From Solirubrobacteraceae bacterium (lineage in GTDB: Bacteria > Actinomycetota > Thermoleophilia > Solirubrobacterales > Solirubrobacteraceae), in the NCBI GenBank assembly GCA_025935735.1, contig JAICUS010000266.1, forward strand, positions 1 through 7,993: a stretch of 7,993 nt of DNA. The letters run 5' to 3'. Shown here piece by piece: positions 1,042 to 7,993 of the stretch. Below the pieces are notes generated by a model. It was not told the origin of the DNA. It made no database searches and was given only the letters and a program-made list of their open reading frames with translations. The translations under genes were made by a program, and so were the position numbers. Every line of letters starts with the position of its first letter. The stretch's first letter is position 1.

Positions 1042-2784
<1,743 letters not shown>

Positions 2785-2788
<4 letters not shown>

Positions 2789-5082
2789 CGGTTCATCGCC
2801 TCCCATACCCGGGACGGGGTGCATGGCATGTCCACGTGGCGCACGCCGATCGCGTCGCACACCGCGTTCACGATCGCCGGCGGCGAGCCGACCGTGGCCG
2901 ACTCGCCGATCCCCTTGGCCCCGATCGGGTGGTGCGGCGACGGCGTGACCGTCGCGCCCGTCTCCCAGTCGGGGACCTCGAGCGCCGTGGGGATCAGGTA
3001 GTCCATCAGCGAGGCGCCGAGGCAGTTGCCGTCCTCGTCGAAGGCGATCGTCTCCATCAGCGCCATGCCGACGCCGTCGGCCAGGCCGCCGTGGATCTGC
3101 CCCTCGACGATCATCGGGTTGATGCGCACGCCGCAGTCGTCCACCGCGACGAAGCGGCGGACCTTCACGTGCGCGGTGCCGGGATCGACGTCCACCACCG
3201 CGATGTACGCACCGAACGGGAACGTGAGGTTCGGCGGGTCGTAGACCGCCTCGGCGTCCAGCCCGGCCTCGACGCCGGCCGGCAGCTCGATCGGCCCGCG
3301 GGCGGCCGCGGCGATCTGCTTGATCGAGACCTCGTGCTCGGGGTCGCCCTTCACGCCCCAGCGTCCGCGCCGCCACTCGAGGTCCTCGGGGGCGGCCTCG
3401 AGCATCGCCGAGGCCACCACCCTGGCGCGGTCGCGGACCTTGCGCGCCACGAGCGCGGCGGCGGCGCCGCTGACCGGCGTCGAGCGGCTGCCGTAGGTGC
3501 CCAGGCCGTACGGGGTCGCGTCCGTGTCGCCGTGGACGACGTCGACGTCCTGCGGCGGGATGCCCAGCTCCTCGGCCACGATCTGGGCGAACGTCGTCTC
3601 GTGGCCCTGGCCCTGGGACTGCACGGAGATGGCCAGCTGGGCGGTGCCGGTGGGGCTGATGCGCAGCGCGGCGCCGTCGTTCATCGCCAGTCCGAGCATG
3701 TCCATGTGCCGGCGCGGGCCGGCGCCCACCGCCTCGGTGAAGCAGCTGACGCCGATGCCCATCAGCTCGCCGCGCGAGCGCTTCTCCGCCTGCTCGCGGC
3801 GCAGCTCGTCGTAGCCGGCGAGCTCGAGCGCGAGCTTCAGCGCCTTCTCGTAGTCGCCCGAGTCGTAGGTCCAGCCGGTGCGGCTGGCGTACGGGAACTG
3901 GTCGGGCTGGAGGAGGTTGCGCCGGCGCAGCGCCACGGGGTCGATCTCCAGCTCGCGGGCCAGGCAGTCCACGCAGCGCTCGATCAGGTACACGGCCTCG
4001 GCGATGCGGAACGAGCACGCGTAGGCCACACCGCCCGGCGCCTTGTTGGTGTAGGCGCCGGTGACCCGGCAGTGGGCGGCCTCGAGGTCGTAGGAGCCGG
4101 TGAACACCGAGAAGAAGCCGGCCGGGTAGCGGCTCGGCTGGGCGGTGGCATTGAACGCGCCGTGGTCGGCGATCACGTCGACGCTCACCGCGAGCATCCG
4201 GCCGTCGCGGCGGGCGGCGATCCGGCCGCGCATCGTGTAGTCGCGGGCGAAGCCGGTGGACATCAGGTTCTCGCTGCGGTCCTCGACCCATTTGACCGGC
4301 CGGCCGAGCGCGAGCGTCGCCTCGATCGCGCACACGTAGCCGGGATAGACCGGGACCTTGTTGCCGAAGCCGCCGCCCACATCGGGCGAGATCACCCGGA
4401 TCTTGTGCTCGGGCAGGCCGGCGATCTGCGAGTACAGCGTGCGGTGCGCGTGCGGCGCCTGGGTCGTGCACCAGACGGTCAGCCGGCCGGAGACGCGGTC
4501 GAAGTCGGCCACGGCGCCGCAGGTCTCCATCGGCGCTGGGTGCGAGCGGGGGAAGACCATGGCCTGCTCGACCACGACGTCGGCCTTGGCGAACGCGGCG
4601 GCGGTCGCCCGCTCGTCCCCGGCCTCCCAGTCGAACACGCGGTTGCCGCCGTCGCGCACGGGCGGCGCGCCGGGCTCGAGGGCGCGGCGTGCATCCACCA
4701 CCGGCTCGAGCGGCTCATAGTCGACGTCGATCAGGTCGAGCGCGTCGCGGGCCGCGTAGTGGTCGTCGGCGACGACGAACGCCACCTCCTGGCCCTGGAA
4801 GCGCACCTTGTCGGTGGCCAGGACGGCCTGGGTGTCGGCCGACAGCGTGGGCATCCAGGCGCAGCCGCGGGCCTCGAGGTCGGCGCCGGTGAGCACGGCG
4901 TGCACGCGCGGGTGCTGCAGCGCGGCCGAGGCGTCGATGTGGGCGATGCGCGCGTGGGCGAGCGGGCTGCGCAGGATCGCCCCGTGCAGCATCCCGGGCA
5001 GCGCGACGTCGTCGACGTAGCGGCCCTGGCCGCGGATGAACCGGGCGTCCTCGAAGCGCTTGAGCGAGCCGTAGGCGGTCAC
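2785..5082 (-). CDS. coxL: Form I aerobic CO dehydrogenase large (molybdopterin) subunit
   Basis: This 765-residue catalytic subunit of a Mo-Cu CO dehydrogenase would oxidise CO to CO2 with water and pass electrons through CoxS and CoxM. Visible family landmarks: 'GGGFGNK' (236-242); 'VAYACSFR' with C356, matching the form I signature AYXCSFR whose Cys carries copper in CoxL (Cys388 in Oligotropha); 'SQGQGHETT' (from 489), the cofactor-contacting loop; '[13 protein letters not shown]'; and '[12 protein letters not shown]' with E727, matching the active-site Glu (Glu763 in Oligotropha). From memory, long stretches such as '[13 protein letters not shown]' are near-identical to Oligotropha CoxL. 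Start: GTG at 5082, with GTGA overlapping the upstream stop and AGGGG six bases before; the frame further upstream reads as Arg-rich shadow. The residue before the Cys is Ala rather than Arg. CoxM and CoxS are not in the window. Confidence 0.94.
2799..2804 (-). promoter_or_regulatory. Ribosome binding site choosing the XdhC-YHS start
   Basis: GGGAGG on the minus strand lies ten bases before the ATG at 2788-2786 and within the end of coxL. It favours the ATGA-overlapping start over the ATG at 2806, which partly coincides with this motif and has no comparable site of its own. A second ATG follows immediately at 2785, so the true start could be one codon later. Confidence 0.6.
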
Positions 5083-5330
5083 GTCTCGCCCCTGGCGTCG
5101 TAGACGGCCACGTTGACGGTCCTGCAGCGCCCGCACTTGACCCGCACGCGCTTGGTCATGGTGTCCAGCCCCATGCCCGCGGCCAGCACGTTGCCGCACT
5201 CCGCGCAGACGTAGTCGTACGGGCCGTGGCCGCGGAACACGGGGCGGTCCGGGTCGTCCTGGAGCGCGGTCGCCCCGTCGGGCGGGACCTCGCCCTCGCG
5301 CACCCGGCGCATGACCATCCGCTCCGTCAA
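5079..5330 (-). CDS. Small zinc-ribbon protein in the CODH operon
   Basis: An 83-residue protein of unknown function. Its second half has two CxxC knuckles, C42-AE-C45 and C66-GR-C69, about 20 residues apart, which is the layout of a four-cysteine zinc ribbon. 'GPYDYVCAECG' before the first knuckle and 'KRVRVKCGRCRTVN' around the second are the best-ordered parts; the N-terminus is charged and probably flexible. It lies between coxG and coxL, its TGA overlapping the coxL GTG (GTGA). The start is uncertain: TTG at 5330 overlaps the coxG stop as TTGA, while ATG at 5318 or 5312 is possible, the latter having GGAG nine bases upstream. All choices keep the ribbon. It could bind zinc, or carry another metal or help assembly; nothing in the sequence decides this. 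Confidence 0.78.
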   Translation of the reverse strand: MTERMVMRRVREGEVPPDGATALQDDPDRPVFRGHGPYDYVCAECGNVLAAGMGLDTMTKRVRVKCGRCRTVNVAVYDARGET

Positions 5331-5749
5331 ATGCTCGCCAGCTTCGTCGTGAAGTCCTTGATCAGCGCGTCGAGCACGCTCTGCACGACGCCCTCCCCCA
5401 TCGACGCCGCCTTGCCGCTGATCTGCGCCGCGGTGTGGACGTTGCCGCCGCCGTCCTCGAGCGTGAACGTGACGTCGGCGTTGGCGTAGCCCGAGCCGCC
5501 GGTGTCGCGCGACTTGACCCGCAGCAGCGCGCGGTCGGCGTCCTTCTCGACGACGGTCACGGTGCCGCGGAAGGTCATCGACATCGCGCCCATGCGCACC
5601 TTGATCTCGGCCTTGGCCTCGTCGTCGCCCGTGCGCTCCAGGACGCTGCCGCCCTCCACGCAGGGGATCACGCGCTCGAGGTCGGTCACCGCCTGCAGGT
5701 TGTAGTCGGCGGGCTTGCCCGTCCGGAAGGCGTGGTCGAGCTCAACCAT
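5327..5749 (-). CDS. coxG: CoxG-type SRPBCC protein (CODH membrane/quinone-linking factor)
   Basis: A 140-residue single-domain protein of the CO dehydrogenase subunit G (SRPBCC/START-like) family. Family features include the N-terminal helix with 'VIPCVEGGSVLE', the strand 'IKVRMGAMSMTFRGTVTV', 'GGSGYANADVTFTL', and the C-terminal helix 'GKAASMGEGVVQSVLDALI'. CoxG proteins have been implicated in attaching CODH to the membrane and in supplying menaquinone as electron acceptor; the SRPBCC fold offers a deep hydrophobic pocket. Many CoxG proteins are longer, with a C-terminal extension that can anchor them to the membrane. This one stops right after the SRPBCC helix and has no hydrophobic tail. 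The ATG at 5749 overlaps the end of the YceI gene by 8 bases and has GAGGAG eight bases upstream. Confidence 0.88.
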   Translation of the reverse strand: MVELDHAFRTGKPADYNLQAVTDLERVIPCVEGGSVLERTGDDEAKAEIKVRMGAMSMTFRGTVTVVEKDADRALLRVKSRDTGGSGYANADVTFTLEDGGGNVHTAAQISGKAASMGEGVVQSVLDALIKDFTTKLASI

Positions 5750-6245
5750 GCGTGTCGCTCCTCGGTTCGATGGCCACCTCGACCTCGTCGGCCACCTTGA
5801 GCGTGCCGAACAGCGCCGAGTAGGGCTTCATGCCCCAGTCCGTCTGCTTGATGCGCGCGCTGCCGGCCACGGCGCCGCCGGCGTCGTGCAGCGTGAAGGT
5901 CAGCGGGCGTCGCTGTCCCCCGAGCTCGAGCTCACCTGCGACCTCGAGCGCGTCGCCGGCGCGCGCGACGCTGGTCGAGCGGAACGCGATCGCGGTGCCC
6001 TTGAGCACCTCCTCGTCGATCGTCTGGGCGATCCCCGCCTTCTCCTCGTCGCCCAGCGGCGAGAGGCCGCCGCTGCCGGAGCGCACGCGCAGGGAGCGGG
6101 CGTCGGCGGTCAGCTCGGCCGCGTCGTCGCCGAGCGTCGCCGACCAGCGCGTGACCTCGAGCACCAGGTTGTGACCGGCCTTGGCGGCCGCGCCGCCCTT
6201 GCCGGTGCGCACGGTCAGCCTGGCGTTGTCGGGGCCGAGCTCCAT
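5742..6245 (-). CDS. YceI-family lipocalin-like protein
   Basis: A 167-residue protein with the YceI beta-barrel pattern: N-terminal 'LGPDNARLTVRTGKGG', the 'AGHNLVLEVTRWSATL' strand pair, the middle 'LEVAGELELGGQRRPLTF' segment, and the C-terminal 'MKPYSALFGTLKVADEVEV' characteristic of the family. YceI proteins have a lipocalin-like fold, and structures show a long isoprenoid chain in the barrel. There is no signal peptide, so this copy should be cytoplasmic, unlike the periplasmic E. coli protein. Its ATG shares a base with the stop of the CoxL-like fragment gene (TGATG), and its own stop overlaps coxG. An isoprenoid-pocket protein beside CoxG suggests a role in quinone or lipid handling during CO oxidation, but that is inference. 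The longer open frame upstream of this ATG is Arg/Pro-rich shadow. Confidence 0.88.
   Translation of the reverse strand: MELGPDNARLTVRTGKGGAAAKAGHNLVLEVTRWSATLGDDAAELTADARSLRVRSGSGGLSPLGDEEKAGIAQTIDEEVLKGTAIAFRSTSVARAGDALEVAGELELGGQRRPLTFTLHDAGGAVAGSARIKQTDWGMKPYSALFGTLKVADEVEVAIEPRSDTHG
5758..5763 (-). promoter_or_regulatory. Ribosome binding site of coxG
   Basis: GAGGAG on the minus strand lies eight bases before the ATG at 5749, embedded in the last codons of the YceI gene. It supports the chosen coxG start and coupled translation. Confidence 0.65.
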
Positions 6246-6685
6246 CAGTCGCGATAGACCGTCTGCGCGTCGAGGCCGCCCTCCACGCCGGGCGGGAGCT
6301 GTCCCGTGCCGTGGGCGTAGAGCGCGAGGTCGGCGATCGTCCGGCTCTCGCCGTCGGCGCGGAACACGCCGTCGGCCCATTGCGGCTCCTCGGCCTCCAT
6401 GGCCGCGCCGGCCAGCAGCCGCGCCTTGTCGCGGATCCGGCCAGCGGTGGTGGCGACGGCGCCGGCGGTCCCGGGCGACGGGCTCGTGTTGAATCCGTGC
6501 CCGGCGCCGAAGCGGTTCTCGTCGGCCGGCACGACCTTGACGTCGAGCGGCGGGACCCCGAGCTCCTCGGCCACGATCGCCGCGTAGTCGCCCTCGCGGC
6601 CGTCGGCCGCGGTGGTGAGGCTCAGCACCATCTTCCCCGTGGGGTGGACGCGCAGGAACACCGCGCGATAGGCCTCGTCAGCCAC
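6245..6685 (-). CDS. Stand-alone CoxL-like domain (partial homologue of the Mo-binding subunit)
   Basis: A 146-residue protein aligning with roughly residues 470-625 of the CoxL encoded nearby. 'AAIVAEELGVPPLDVKVV' matches CoxL '[18 protein letters not shown]', 'GRIRDKARLLAGAAMEA' matches '[17 protein letters not shown]', and 'LPPGVEGGLDAQTVY' matches '[15 protein letters not shown]'. The cofactor loop is not preserved: 'TTAADGREGD' replaces '[10 protein letters not shown]', and 'GAGHGFNTSP' replaces '[10 protein letters not shown]'. GGGFG, the AYXCSFR loop and the active-site Glu are all outside the retained segment. It therefore cannot catalyse by itself. It looks like a maintained gene rather than debris: the GTG start has a very strong ribosome site, the frame is intact, and both junctions overlap neighbours. 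Its role is unknown; an assembly or partner-binding part in CODH maturation is possible. Confidence 0.85.
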   Translation of the reverse strand: MADEAYRAVFLRVHPTGKMVLSLTTAADGREGDYAAIVAEELGVPPLDVKVVPADENRFGAGHGFNTSPSPGTAGAVATTAGRIRDKARLLAGAAMEAEEPQWADGVFRADGESRTIADLALYAHGTGQLPPGVEGGLDAQTVYRD

Positions 6686-6845
6686 GCTCCTCCTCCTGTT
6701 GCAGGCGCACGCGCTCCTGGTGCGCGGTCAACGCGTTGTGGTCCTCCCGGTCGCAGAACGCCGGCTGCGGGCCGCCGCGCGGGTCGGGCGGGACCGCCGG
6801 CCGGTCGCAGCCGGGGTAGATGCAGCGCTTCACGTCAGCGTCCAT
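6678..6845 (-). CDS. Small Cys/His protein (55 aa), putative zinc-binding
   Basis: A 55-residue protein with 'C8-IYPG-C13' near the N-terminus and 'F30-C31-DRED-H36-N' later. This Cys-x4-Cys ... Cys-x4-His arrangement could bind one zinc ion. A Pro/Gly loop ('AVPPDPRGGPQP') joins the halves, and the C-terminus is a charged helix ending 'QQEEERG'. No function is recognised. The ATG at 6845 is preferred because AGGAAGGA lies ten bases upstream. The alternative GTG at 6833 overlaps the coxE stop as GTGA but leaves the ribosome site too far away, and it shortens the protein by only four residues. The gene overlaps coxE by 16 bases and the CoxL-like fragment by 8, so it belongs to the operon. Confidence 0.72.
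   Translation of the reverse strand: MDADVKRCIYPGCDRPAVPPDPRGGPQPAFCDREDHNALTAHQERVRLQQEEERG
6687..6697 (-). promoter_or_regulatory. Strong ribosome binding site of the CoxL-like fragment gene
   Basis: AGGAGGAGGAG on the minus strand ends one base before the GTG at 6685, offering several AGGAGG registers at workable spacing. It encodes Gln/Glu codons at the end of the small upstream gene. It is the strongest ribosome site in the operon and supports genuine expression of the fragment. Confidence 0.7.
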
Positions 6846-7993
6846 CCGGGCGTCGTCCTTCCTCGGCTCGGGCCGTAGCCGCTGGGCATGGCCACGGAGC
6901 TGCCGGCCACCGGCGTGGCGCTGCCCCACGGCTCCTCGTCCTCGGGTGCGGCGGGGATCTCCGGCGGCTCGACGTAGTCGGACCCGATCGCTTCCACGAC
7001 CTCGGTCAGCGCGGCGAGGCTGTGCCCGGAGACGAGCGCGTCGACGTGCGGCAGCGCGGCGGCCATCCCGCCGGCCCGCGGGGCGAAGCCGGCGGCGCTG
7101 ACCCGCGGGTTGACCCAGACGATGCGATGGGCCAGCCGGGCCAGCCGCGCCATCTCGCGGGCCACCAGCTCGGGCTCGCCGCGCTCCCAGCCGTCGGACA
7201 GGATCACCACGACCGCGCCGCGGGCCATGCCGCGCCGGCCGTGGCGGTCGTTGAACGCCTTCAGCGCGTCGCCGATCCGGGTGCCGCTGGACCAGTCGGG
7301 CGCGGTGGCCGCGGCGCGCTGGATCGCCCGCTCCGGCGAGCGGGTGGCGAGCGCGCGGGTGATGCGGGTCAGCCGCGTGGCGAACACGAACGCCTCGGCG
7401 TTCGGCCCGGCGCCGGCGGCGCAGGTCAGGAACTGGAGGTACGCGCGGGCGTAGGGCTCCATCGAGCCGCTGATGTCGCACAGCAGGACGATCCGGCGCG
7501 GCAGGACGCGCCGGCGGCGACGGGCCAGGCGGGTCGGCTCGCCGCCGGTGCGCAGGCTGGCCCGCAGCGTGCGGCGCAGGTCGATGCGCTCGCCGCGGCG
7601 GTCGCGCCGGGCGCGGCGGGTGCGCCGCTGCGGCGTGGCGATCTTCAGCTGGGTCATCAGCGCGTAGAGCTGCGCGAGCTCGCCGGGCTCGAGCGCGTCG
7701 AAGCGCTTGCCGCGCAGCCGCTCCTCGTCGCTGGCCGCCACGGGCACGACCGCCTCGCGCTCGGCCTCGCCCTCGCCTCCGGACGGGGCGGGCGCGGCGC
7801 CGCCGGGCGCGCCGTCGCGCCTCTGGCGGCTCGTCACGGGCCGCTCGTCCGAGGGCGCGGGCGCCGCCGGGGCGTCCGTTTCGGGCGGCTCGACCACCAG
7901 GGAGCCGAAGACCTCGTGGAACACGGCGTCGAACGCCTTGATCTGCGCGGCGTCGGAGACCAGCACCGTGCGGGCGGTCCAGTACAAGCGCCG
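6830..7993 (-). CDS. coxE: CoxE-type VWA-domain protein (5' end outside window)
   Basis: The frame is open to the right edge (the first residues read RRLYWTARTVLVS), so the protein is N-terminally partial, with 387 residues visible. 'YWTARTVLVSDAAQIKAFDAVF' matches the conserved N-terminal helical region of CoxE. An Ala/Pro/Glu-rich linker and a very Arg-rich stretch follow, then a von Willebrand A domain with the metal-site motif DISGSM (D-x-S-x-S codons at 7463-7477), the Thr of 'SSGTRIGDAL' and the Asp of 'ILSDGWERG', so all three MIDAS elements are present. 'DISGSMEPYARAYLQFL' is typical of CoxE. CoxE works with the AAA+ protein CoxD in maturing the Mo-Cu site. The C-terminus carries a Pro/Gly/Ser-rich tail of about 45 residues after the domain. 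CoxD is presumably just upstream. Confidence 0.9.
   Translation of the reverse strand, partial: RRLYWTARTVLVSDAAQIKAFDAVFHEVFGSLVVEPPETDAPAAPAPSDERPVTSRQRRDGAPGGAAPAPSGGEGEAEREAVVPVAASDEERLRGKRFDALEPGELAQLYALMTQLKIATPQRRTRRARRDRRGERIDLRRTLRASLRTGGEPTRLARRRRRVLPRRIVLLCDISGSMEPYARAYLQFLTCAAGAGPNAEAFVFATRLTRITRALATRSPERAIQRAAATAPDWSSGTRIGDALKAFNDRHGRRGMARGAVVVILSDGWERGEPELVAREMARLARLAHRIVWVNPRVSAAGFAPRAGGMAAALPHVDALVSGHSLAALTEVVEAIGSDYVEPPEIPAAPEDEEPWGSATPVAGSSVAMPSGYGPSRGRTTPGWTLT
6856..6863 (-). promoter_or_regulatory. Ribosome binding site of the 55-aa Cys/His protein
   Basis: AGGAAGGA on the minus strand, ten bases before the ATG at 6845 and within the tail of coxE. It decides for ATG 6845 over GTG 6833. 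Confidence 0.6.

Follow-up and report, generated by a model that had tools for sequence, protein, structure and literature searches.

FRAG, a selected stand-alone CoxL-like subdomain protein encoded beside coxE in CO dehydrogenase clusters of Solirubrobacter and relatives

The assembly scaffold NifEN is a paralogue of the catalytic NifDK that turned assembly helper; it is near full length and binds a cofactor precursor. A 146-residue protein, here denoted FRAG, that is encoded in a carbon monoxide dehydrogenase (CODH) cluster of a Solirubrobacteraceae bacterium resembles NifEN in being a paralogue of an enzyme subunit and a putative assembly helper, whereas it comprises one subdomain and is devoid of the binding loops. 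FRAG is similar to form I CoxL (TIGR02416; structures 8uem and 1n5w) in sequence as well as in the predicted fold, which corresponds to 8uem residues about 488-641, but it is 146 residues long compared to about 770 in CoxL, lacks the catalytic Cys and Glu regions, has lost both cofactor-side loops, and is present in addition to a full CoxL. Like the medium subunit of nicotinate dehydrogenase (3hrd_B, 330 aa, termed a molybdopterin subunit), FRAG is a separately encoded protein with this subdomain; however, it is less than half that size and its loci contain a complete CoxL. Wherever CoxL lies fully on the contig it is complete, so that FRAG does not complement a shortened partner, as a split subunit does.

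The CoxD and CoxE proteins of the clusters that contain FRAG are the same kind of machine as other pairs of a MoxR AAA+ protein and a VWA protein with their clients, namely, CbbQ/CbbO with rubisco, NorQ/NorD with cNOR, and MSMEG_0748/0751. According to the accessible parts of the respective papers, in O. carboxidovorans, CoxD functions in sulfuration, and the CODH made by CoxE and CoxF mutants is free of Cu (PMC4240915); in the CODH cluster of M. smegmatis, the MoxR protein binds its VWA neighbour (PMC12657314); CbbO contacts rubisco with its VWA metal site plus a single surface acid (PMC4660213), and a metal site together with an acid on the surface has been described for client binding by VWA partners of MoxR proteins (PMC4660213, PMC9976466). 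These parts of the literature mention no client-derived mimic for such pairs, to which FRAG would be an extra part, and do not name the client surface of CODH; recognition and opening of clients by MoxR/VWA machines are poorly known. A literature search at the level of titles and abstracts, with subscription papers largely outside its range, yielded no stand-alone CoxL fragment, although one may still have been published.

Gene, sequence and predicted fold of FRAG

The window, i.e. the whole stretch of 7,993 nucleotides that was analysed, contains the following features.

6830..7993, minus strand: coxE (VWA_CoxE, PF05762), 5' end beyond the window
6842..6931, minus strand: conserved C-terminal tail of CoxE, PWGSATPVAGSSVAMPSGYGPSRGRTTPGW, restricted, among the clusters examined, to those that contain FRAG or break off ahead of it
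6678..6845, minus strand: ZnA, a 55-residue Cys/His protein that matches neither Pfam nor NCBIfam, located between coxE and FRAG
6245..6685, minus strand: FRAG, stand-alone CoxL-like subdomain protein of 146 aa, covering positions 49-183 of 283 of PF20256 (MoCoBD_2), the first alpha/beta half
6587..6610, minus strand: FRAG residues 26-33 (AADGREGD), the site of the CoxL-invariant loop QGQGHETT, which is lost
6488..6514, minus strand: FRAG residues 58-66 (RFGAGHGFN), in place of the second CoxL loop
5742..6245, minus strand: YceI-family protein (PF04264), downstream neighbour of FRAG
5327..5749, minus strand: coxG (PF06240)
5079..5330, minus strand: ZnB, an 83-residue zinc-ribbon-like protein with below cut-off matches only
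2785..5082, minus strand: CoxL2, full-length form I CoxL (TIGR02416, 1260 bits)
1922..2785, minus strand: XdhC/CoxI-family protein with a weak C-terminal YHS-like segment (YHS E 0.01, below cut-off)

On the plus strand, 114-1932 contains two open reading frames that run convergently towards the cox cluster and, by eye, resemble permeases of sugar-type ABC transporters.

The FRAG reading frame is intact, running on the minus strand from a GTG start at 6685 to a TGA ending at 6245, with AGGAGGAGG upstream of the start codon, and it overlaps both neighbouring genes, by 8 nt on the upstream side (6678-6685) and by 1 nt on the downstream side (6245), in agreement with the first-pass annotation of this DNA. 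That annotation aligned FRAG with part of the adjacent CoxL, and a BLASTP comparison confirms this, with 56 of 142 residues (39%) identical to CoxL residues 473-614 (E = 4e-25). The 18 identical bases (3566-3583 and 6561-6578) to which it also drew attention are real and are the longest word common to the DNA of the two genes; however, 9 of 60 synonymous-codon shuffles reached at least 18 shared bases, such that this identity carries no information beyond the shared protein sequence and codon bias and is ruled out as a sign of recent copying.

In the protein alignment, D28-G29-R30-E31-G32 of FRAG are opposite Q530-G531-H532-E533-T534 of CoxL (O. carboxidovorans numbering), i.e. the change from GQGHE to DGREG proposed initially was correctly mapped to within one residue. 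A second cofactor-side loop, TYGSRST, is lost as well, which the first-pass annotation did not mention; we take GQGHE and TYGSRST to be the cofactor-binding loops of CoxL. Only 3 of the 19 CoxL-invariant positions in these loops are kept in FRAG (in at least 90% of 51 FRAG rows) and 16 are lost, compared to 14 of 29 positions kept outside the two loops. All 51 FRAG rows have R58, F59 and G60, which occur in 8%, 0% and 0%, respectively, of the 24 CoxL rows, and the acids D48, D55 and E135 of FRAG are kept and are common to 92-96% of the CoxL rows. The Cys motif of CoxL (AYxCSFR; AYACSFR in the adjacent CoxL) and the GAKG-x-GES stretch (GAKG-I-GES in the adjacent CoxL), which the loci have in their full CoxL, fall outside the region that matches FRAG; the catalytic Cys and Glu regions are thus missing from FRAG, as originally noted.

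The form I CoxL model TIGR02416 matches FRAG with 85 bits over positions 478-619 only, compared to a curated cut-off of 991 bits over about 770 positions and a score of 1260 for the adjacent CoxL, so that FRAG is not a member of this family. The PF20256 model scores 44.2 bits, above the gathering cut-off of 27, albeit only over positions 49-183 of 283, and FRAG is assigned to it. The predicted structure (pLDDT 87) has the fold of the first alpha/beta subdomain of MoCoBD_2, and the best solved structure for FRAG is the CODH large subunit 8uem (residues about 488-641), matched over 143 residues with an rmsd of 2.5. As modelled, FRAG keeps the CoxL subdomain fold with the cofactor-side loops dismantled.

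Distribution, selection and origin

A search of 5.8 billion proteins yielded 7690 matches to FRAG, many of which, beyond the best 120, may be CoxL cut at contig ends; the best 120 are all 145-151 aa long, with 75-97% identity and 99-100% query coverage. Thus, stand-alone homologues of the same length, the recurrence of which had been proposed as a check, do recur, and a union of 31 sampled genomes from the class of S. soli has FRAG. The 13 genome loci identified initially all come from Solirubrobacterales, Solirubrobacteraceae or Solirubrobacter, and FRAG is present in Solirubrobacter soli DSM 22325, S. taibaiensis KCTC 29222 and Candidatus S. pratensis. In the genome surveys, larger groups were sampled evenly, the best candidates per genome were scored and the counts refer to the matches listed. 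On this basis, a stand-alone FRAG was found in 28 of 399 genomes of the class of S. soli, with 22 close copies (subfamily A) and 6 distant ones (five of subfamily B and one of subfamily C); the other matches listed are mostly CoxL-size frames, some of them cut by contig ends, and one genome (G376) has a partial match to the FRAG profile (positions 49-148) in an open frame of 215. The phylum sample of 396 genomes gave four stand-alone copies among the matches listed (E to about 3e-20), all in genomes of the class sample, and a partial profile match in G429 (positions 26-149, open frame 284). Of the 201 genomes sampled from the order, 23 have FRAG, and three of these (G001, G003 and G006) were new, hence the union given above. 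When the protein search was started from a subfamily C member, 383 proteins were found at E <= 1e-10, and the best 120 of these were 147-186 aa long.

In an alignment of 134 FRAG proteins (14 from the window and loci and 120 from the protein search), long invariant or nearly invariant blocks are observed, such as RAVFLR-HPTGKMVLSL and GVEGGLDAQ. The codon-model omega of FRAG is 0.078 (14 sequences, 150 codons), within the range of five neighbours (0.054-0.112), namely, CoxE (0.103, 12 sequences), YceI (0.112, 14), CoxG (0.054, 13), ZnB (0.054, 13) and CoxL (0.061, 9). The NG86 estimate is higher, with a median dN/dS of 0.34 over 91 pairs, but we distrust this value because third codon positions are 95% G+C and synonymous sites look saturated. 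By both estimates, which are below 1, FRAG is under purifying selection, and the alternative of neutral drift raised at the outset finds no support. The FRAG proteins make up a genuine family, found in Solirubrobacter and its relatives, and FRAG is almost certainly a selected, functional protein.

In a tree of the shared region (75 rows, 51 FRAG and 24 CoxL, rooted on O. carboxidovorans CoxL), all 51 FRAG rows form one clade (support 100/100) that is nested among actinobacterial form I CoxL, with bootstrap values of 87-90 on the nesting branches. The CoxL1 and CoxL2 proteins form two further clades, apart from FRAG, with the CoxL of the window in CoxL2. Moreover, in nine FRAG stretches (L006, L050-L055, L057 and L058), the DNA fetched holds no second CoxL, so that FRAG does not require CoxL2 beside it. 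The initial view of FRAG as a copy kept next to its parent is therefore not borne out, and derivation from the adjacent CoxL2 is ruled out by the tree. One actinobacterial form I CoxL subdomain, the first alpha/beta part of the second cofactor-binding domain, became the free-standing, non-catalytic FRAG once and then stayed beside coxE.

The window CoxL2 itself has AYACSFR in place of AYRCSFR, with no coxM or coxS alongside. At this variable position of the active site, the 8 CoxL2 copies read from the loci have Ala (7) or Ser (1), whereas all 8 CoxL1 copies read have Arg; four CoxL of the phylum sample (L046-L049) also have Ala.

Gene neighbourhood and the CoxE tail

The usual gene order in the clusters is coxM-coxS-coxL1-(xdhC-NTP transferase)-coxD-coxE-(ZnA)-FRAG-yceI-coxG-(ZnB)-(coxL2-xdhC), with yceI on either strand. 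FRAG is encoded with both components of the CoxD/CoxE machinery: it adjoins coxE, with at most ZnA recognised in between, in all 13 initial loci and in 28 of 28 class-survey loci, and coxD is in the same cluster wherever the contig extends far enough (these neighbours were identified by tblastn with the cluster's own proteins, such that small unrecognised genes in between could be missed). In L036, FRAG is on the opposite strand, yet still adjoins coxE. In contrast, no link is seen to XdhC, which the first-pass annotation had named next to CoxE as a possible partner: the position of xdhC varies, or the gene is missing from the stretch.

The control set consisted of 19 stretches around CoxL genes from genomes of the class without a listed stand-alone copy, and FRAG was detected in none of them. 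Both coxE and coxG are in view in 8 of the controls, and coxG is the next recognised gene after coxE in 7 (L070, L071, L072, L074, L075, L076 and L081); in L083, the two genes are apart and on different strands. The other 11 controls are cut, are missing coxE or coxG, or are FRAG-type clusters apparently broken at the contig end (L078, from G264, and L079/L080, from G384). Among all 19 stretches, yceI was seen only in L080, in the broken cluster of G384. All 25 subfamily A genomes, all 5 of subfamily B (where it sits at the opposite end of the cluster, by coxM) and G264 have ZnA; the one genome of subfamily C, G384 and 12 genomes that have form I CoxL without FRAG gave no match to it. In two stretches from one genome (L027 and L062, G290), coxE is broken into two frames that overlap, through either a mutation or an error in sequencing.

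CoxE of the FRAG clusters carries a conserved C-terminal tail of 30 residues, which in subfamily A reads W-x-S-A-T-P-V...V-A-M-P-S-G-Y-G-P-S-R-G-x-T-T-P-G-W, with related forms in subfamilies B and C. Some form of the tail is present in all 18 aligned CoxE from clusters with FRAG and in none of the 8 CoxE from clusters without it, which end after the VWA domain (the one in L083 is a distant CoxE). Mean column identity among the 18 CoxE is 0.74 in the tail, between the values for the VWA domain (0.86) and the linkers (0.50-0.54). Irregular forms are the divergent tail of L054 and the shortened one of S. soli (L002), which, near 7860, ends in ...SSVPMPYGRVK, with FRAG intact.

A profile of the tail identified 29 of the 399 class-survey genomes, i.e. 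all 28 with FRAG and G264, the contig of which stops just after ZnA; the weak matches are S. soli (partial) and G238 (divergent, E = 5.9e-4), and a second match in G224 is at chance level. In the order sample, FRAG and the tail occur in the same 23 of 201 genomes, and in a phylum sample of 346 genomes, the tail profile matched the four genomes already known to have FRAG plus G661, the latter at chance level and with no tail-like motif in a regex scan of the fetched stretch. In a tree of the CoxE core that included 37 of 42 loci (L007, L013, L062, L063 and L072 were left out, the core being too short), the 29 CoxE of FRAG-type clusters form one clade (98/96). Because both FRAG and the tail mark this single clade, their co-occurrence amounts to one event rather than many. 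As a pattern in sequences, it fits a pair that works together.

The tail is not tied to ZnA, given that G047 has FRAG and the tail without ZnA, which therefore cannot be the sole partner of the tail, and that in subfamily B, ZnA is at the coxM end. The distribution of YceI is nearly the same as that of FRAG in the clusters compared, so that the tail could serve another partner, YceI being a possible one. The shortened tail of S. soli, where FRAG is kept, and the divergent tail of G238 would, as sequence patterns, speak against pairing of the tail with FRAG. In an AlphaFold2 model of the tail joined to FRAG (6 paired rows, out-of-frame linker, tail-only rows of the alignment with two residues misplaced), the tail was not docked, with pLDDT of about 43-56, a result that carries little weight in either direction.

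Possible role of FRAG in CODH maturation

FRAG as a real, selected accessory protein of CODH clusters, together with its tie to coxE, is well supported. That a non-catalytic protein has been kept beside CoxE suggests that it now assists in assembly of the enzyme, and the CoxD/CoxE machinery is its probable partner. Given that FRAG presents a CoxL surface without the cofactor site and is kept beside CoxE, the simplest reading is that of a client mimic, i.e. an adaptor, placeholder or pseudo-client. Under the full mechanism, to which we assign a probability of roughly 0.4, FRAG would mimic CoxL within the CoxD (MoxR AAA+)/CoxE (VWA) machine that finishes the CODH active site. It would dock on CoxE via the CoxE tail, the VWA metal site or both. 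Once docked, it would be an adaptor or pseudo-client: it would present the corresponding region of apo-CoxL, or keep that region open, during sulfuration and copper insertion, after which it would yield to CoxL. A bolder version, which we consider doubtful, is that FRAG is a captured CoxL subdomain, without its cofactor loops and leashed to CoxE by the new tail, and a placeholder or pseudo-client that lets the MoxR/VWA machine recognise apo-CoxL and open it precisely at that subdomain. From the structural, decoy or chaperone role proposed at first, an intact, selected, non-catalytic protein, probably a helper and linked to CoxE, remains, which may be a decoy, an adaptor or a structural subunit.

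An unlikely alternative, although the most probable of those considered, is that the mature enzyme contains FRAG permanently, as a structural or regulatory subunit that sits on CoxL1/M/S, e.g. stabilising CODH or setting its affinity. The CoxL-invariant core partly kept in FRAG is compatible with such a role, as are the distances over 15 loci, where, among CoxL1, CoxD and CoxE, FRAG tracks CoxL1 best (r = 0.94, partial r = 0.81), with partial r of 0.54 for CoxD and 0.11 for CoxE. Within subfamily A, none of the three stands out (partial r of 0.10 for CoxL1, 0.22 for CoxD and 0.19 for CoxE). That FRAG distances do not follow those of CoxE would also seem to count against CoxE as the partner. 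However, the constant neighbour of FRAG is coxE rather than coxL, and the tail specific to CoxE marks the same clusters as FRAG. The solved CODH complexes found in the structure searches (8uem, 1n5w and 1ffu) are not decisive on this point because they come from other lineages and FRAG was not sought in them by name.

Downstream of FRAG, in most loci with a long enough contig, are yceI and coxG, and one report links CoxG to membrane recruitment (PMC4240915); accordingly, FRAG might serve electron transfer or membrane docking with CoxG and YceI instead of maturation. This appears improbable, given that yceI flips strand and moves off in L009 and L055, and coxG lies across the cluster in L055, whereas FRAG is still beside coxE.

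Descent from a cofactor-binding subdomain and location among maturation genes could also indicate that FRAG carries or inserts a piece of the cofactor, be it the pterin-cytosine cofactor, copper or sulfur. This is quite improbable considering the loss of 16 of the 19 CoxL-invariant loop positions. Furthermore, FRAG of the window contains no Cys, and the only His that is invariant across the 51 FRAG rows, H14, is also present in 71% of the CoxL rows; in subfamily C, H63 is replaced by Asn and H125 by Phe. The lack of a conserved Cys, and of an invariant His specific to FRAG, disfavours a metal or persulfide carrier. Finally, although FRAG copies one part of a gene family that is encoded nearby, a decaying remnant, frameshifted gene or assembly artefact of a full-length CoxL is virtually ruled out by the single length of the best 120 of 7690 matches, the omega of 0.078, the single clade of 51 rows and the presence in strain-collection genomes.

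If FRAG is indeed a client mimic, the conserved 146-residue piece of the client and the CoxE tail would point to the client surface of CODH and provide a small system for binding tests. Among the best 120 of the 7690 matches, many FRAG proteins bear the name 'carbon-monoxide dehydrogenase large subunit' in annotations of metagenomes, so that in soils with many Solirubrobacterales, annotation-based counts of coxL may give too high a number of CO oxidisers.
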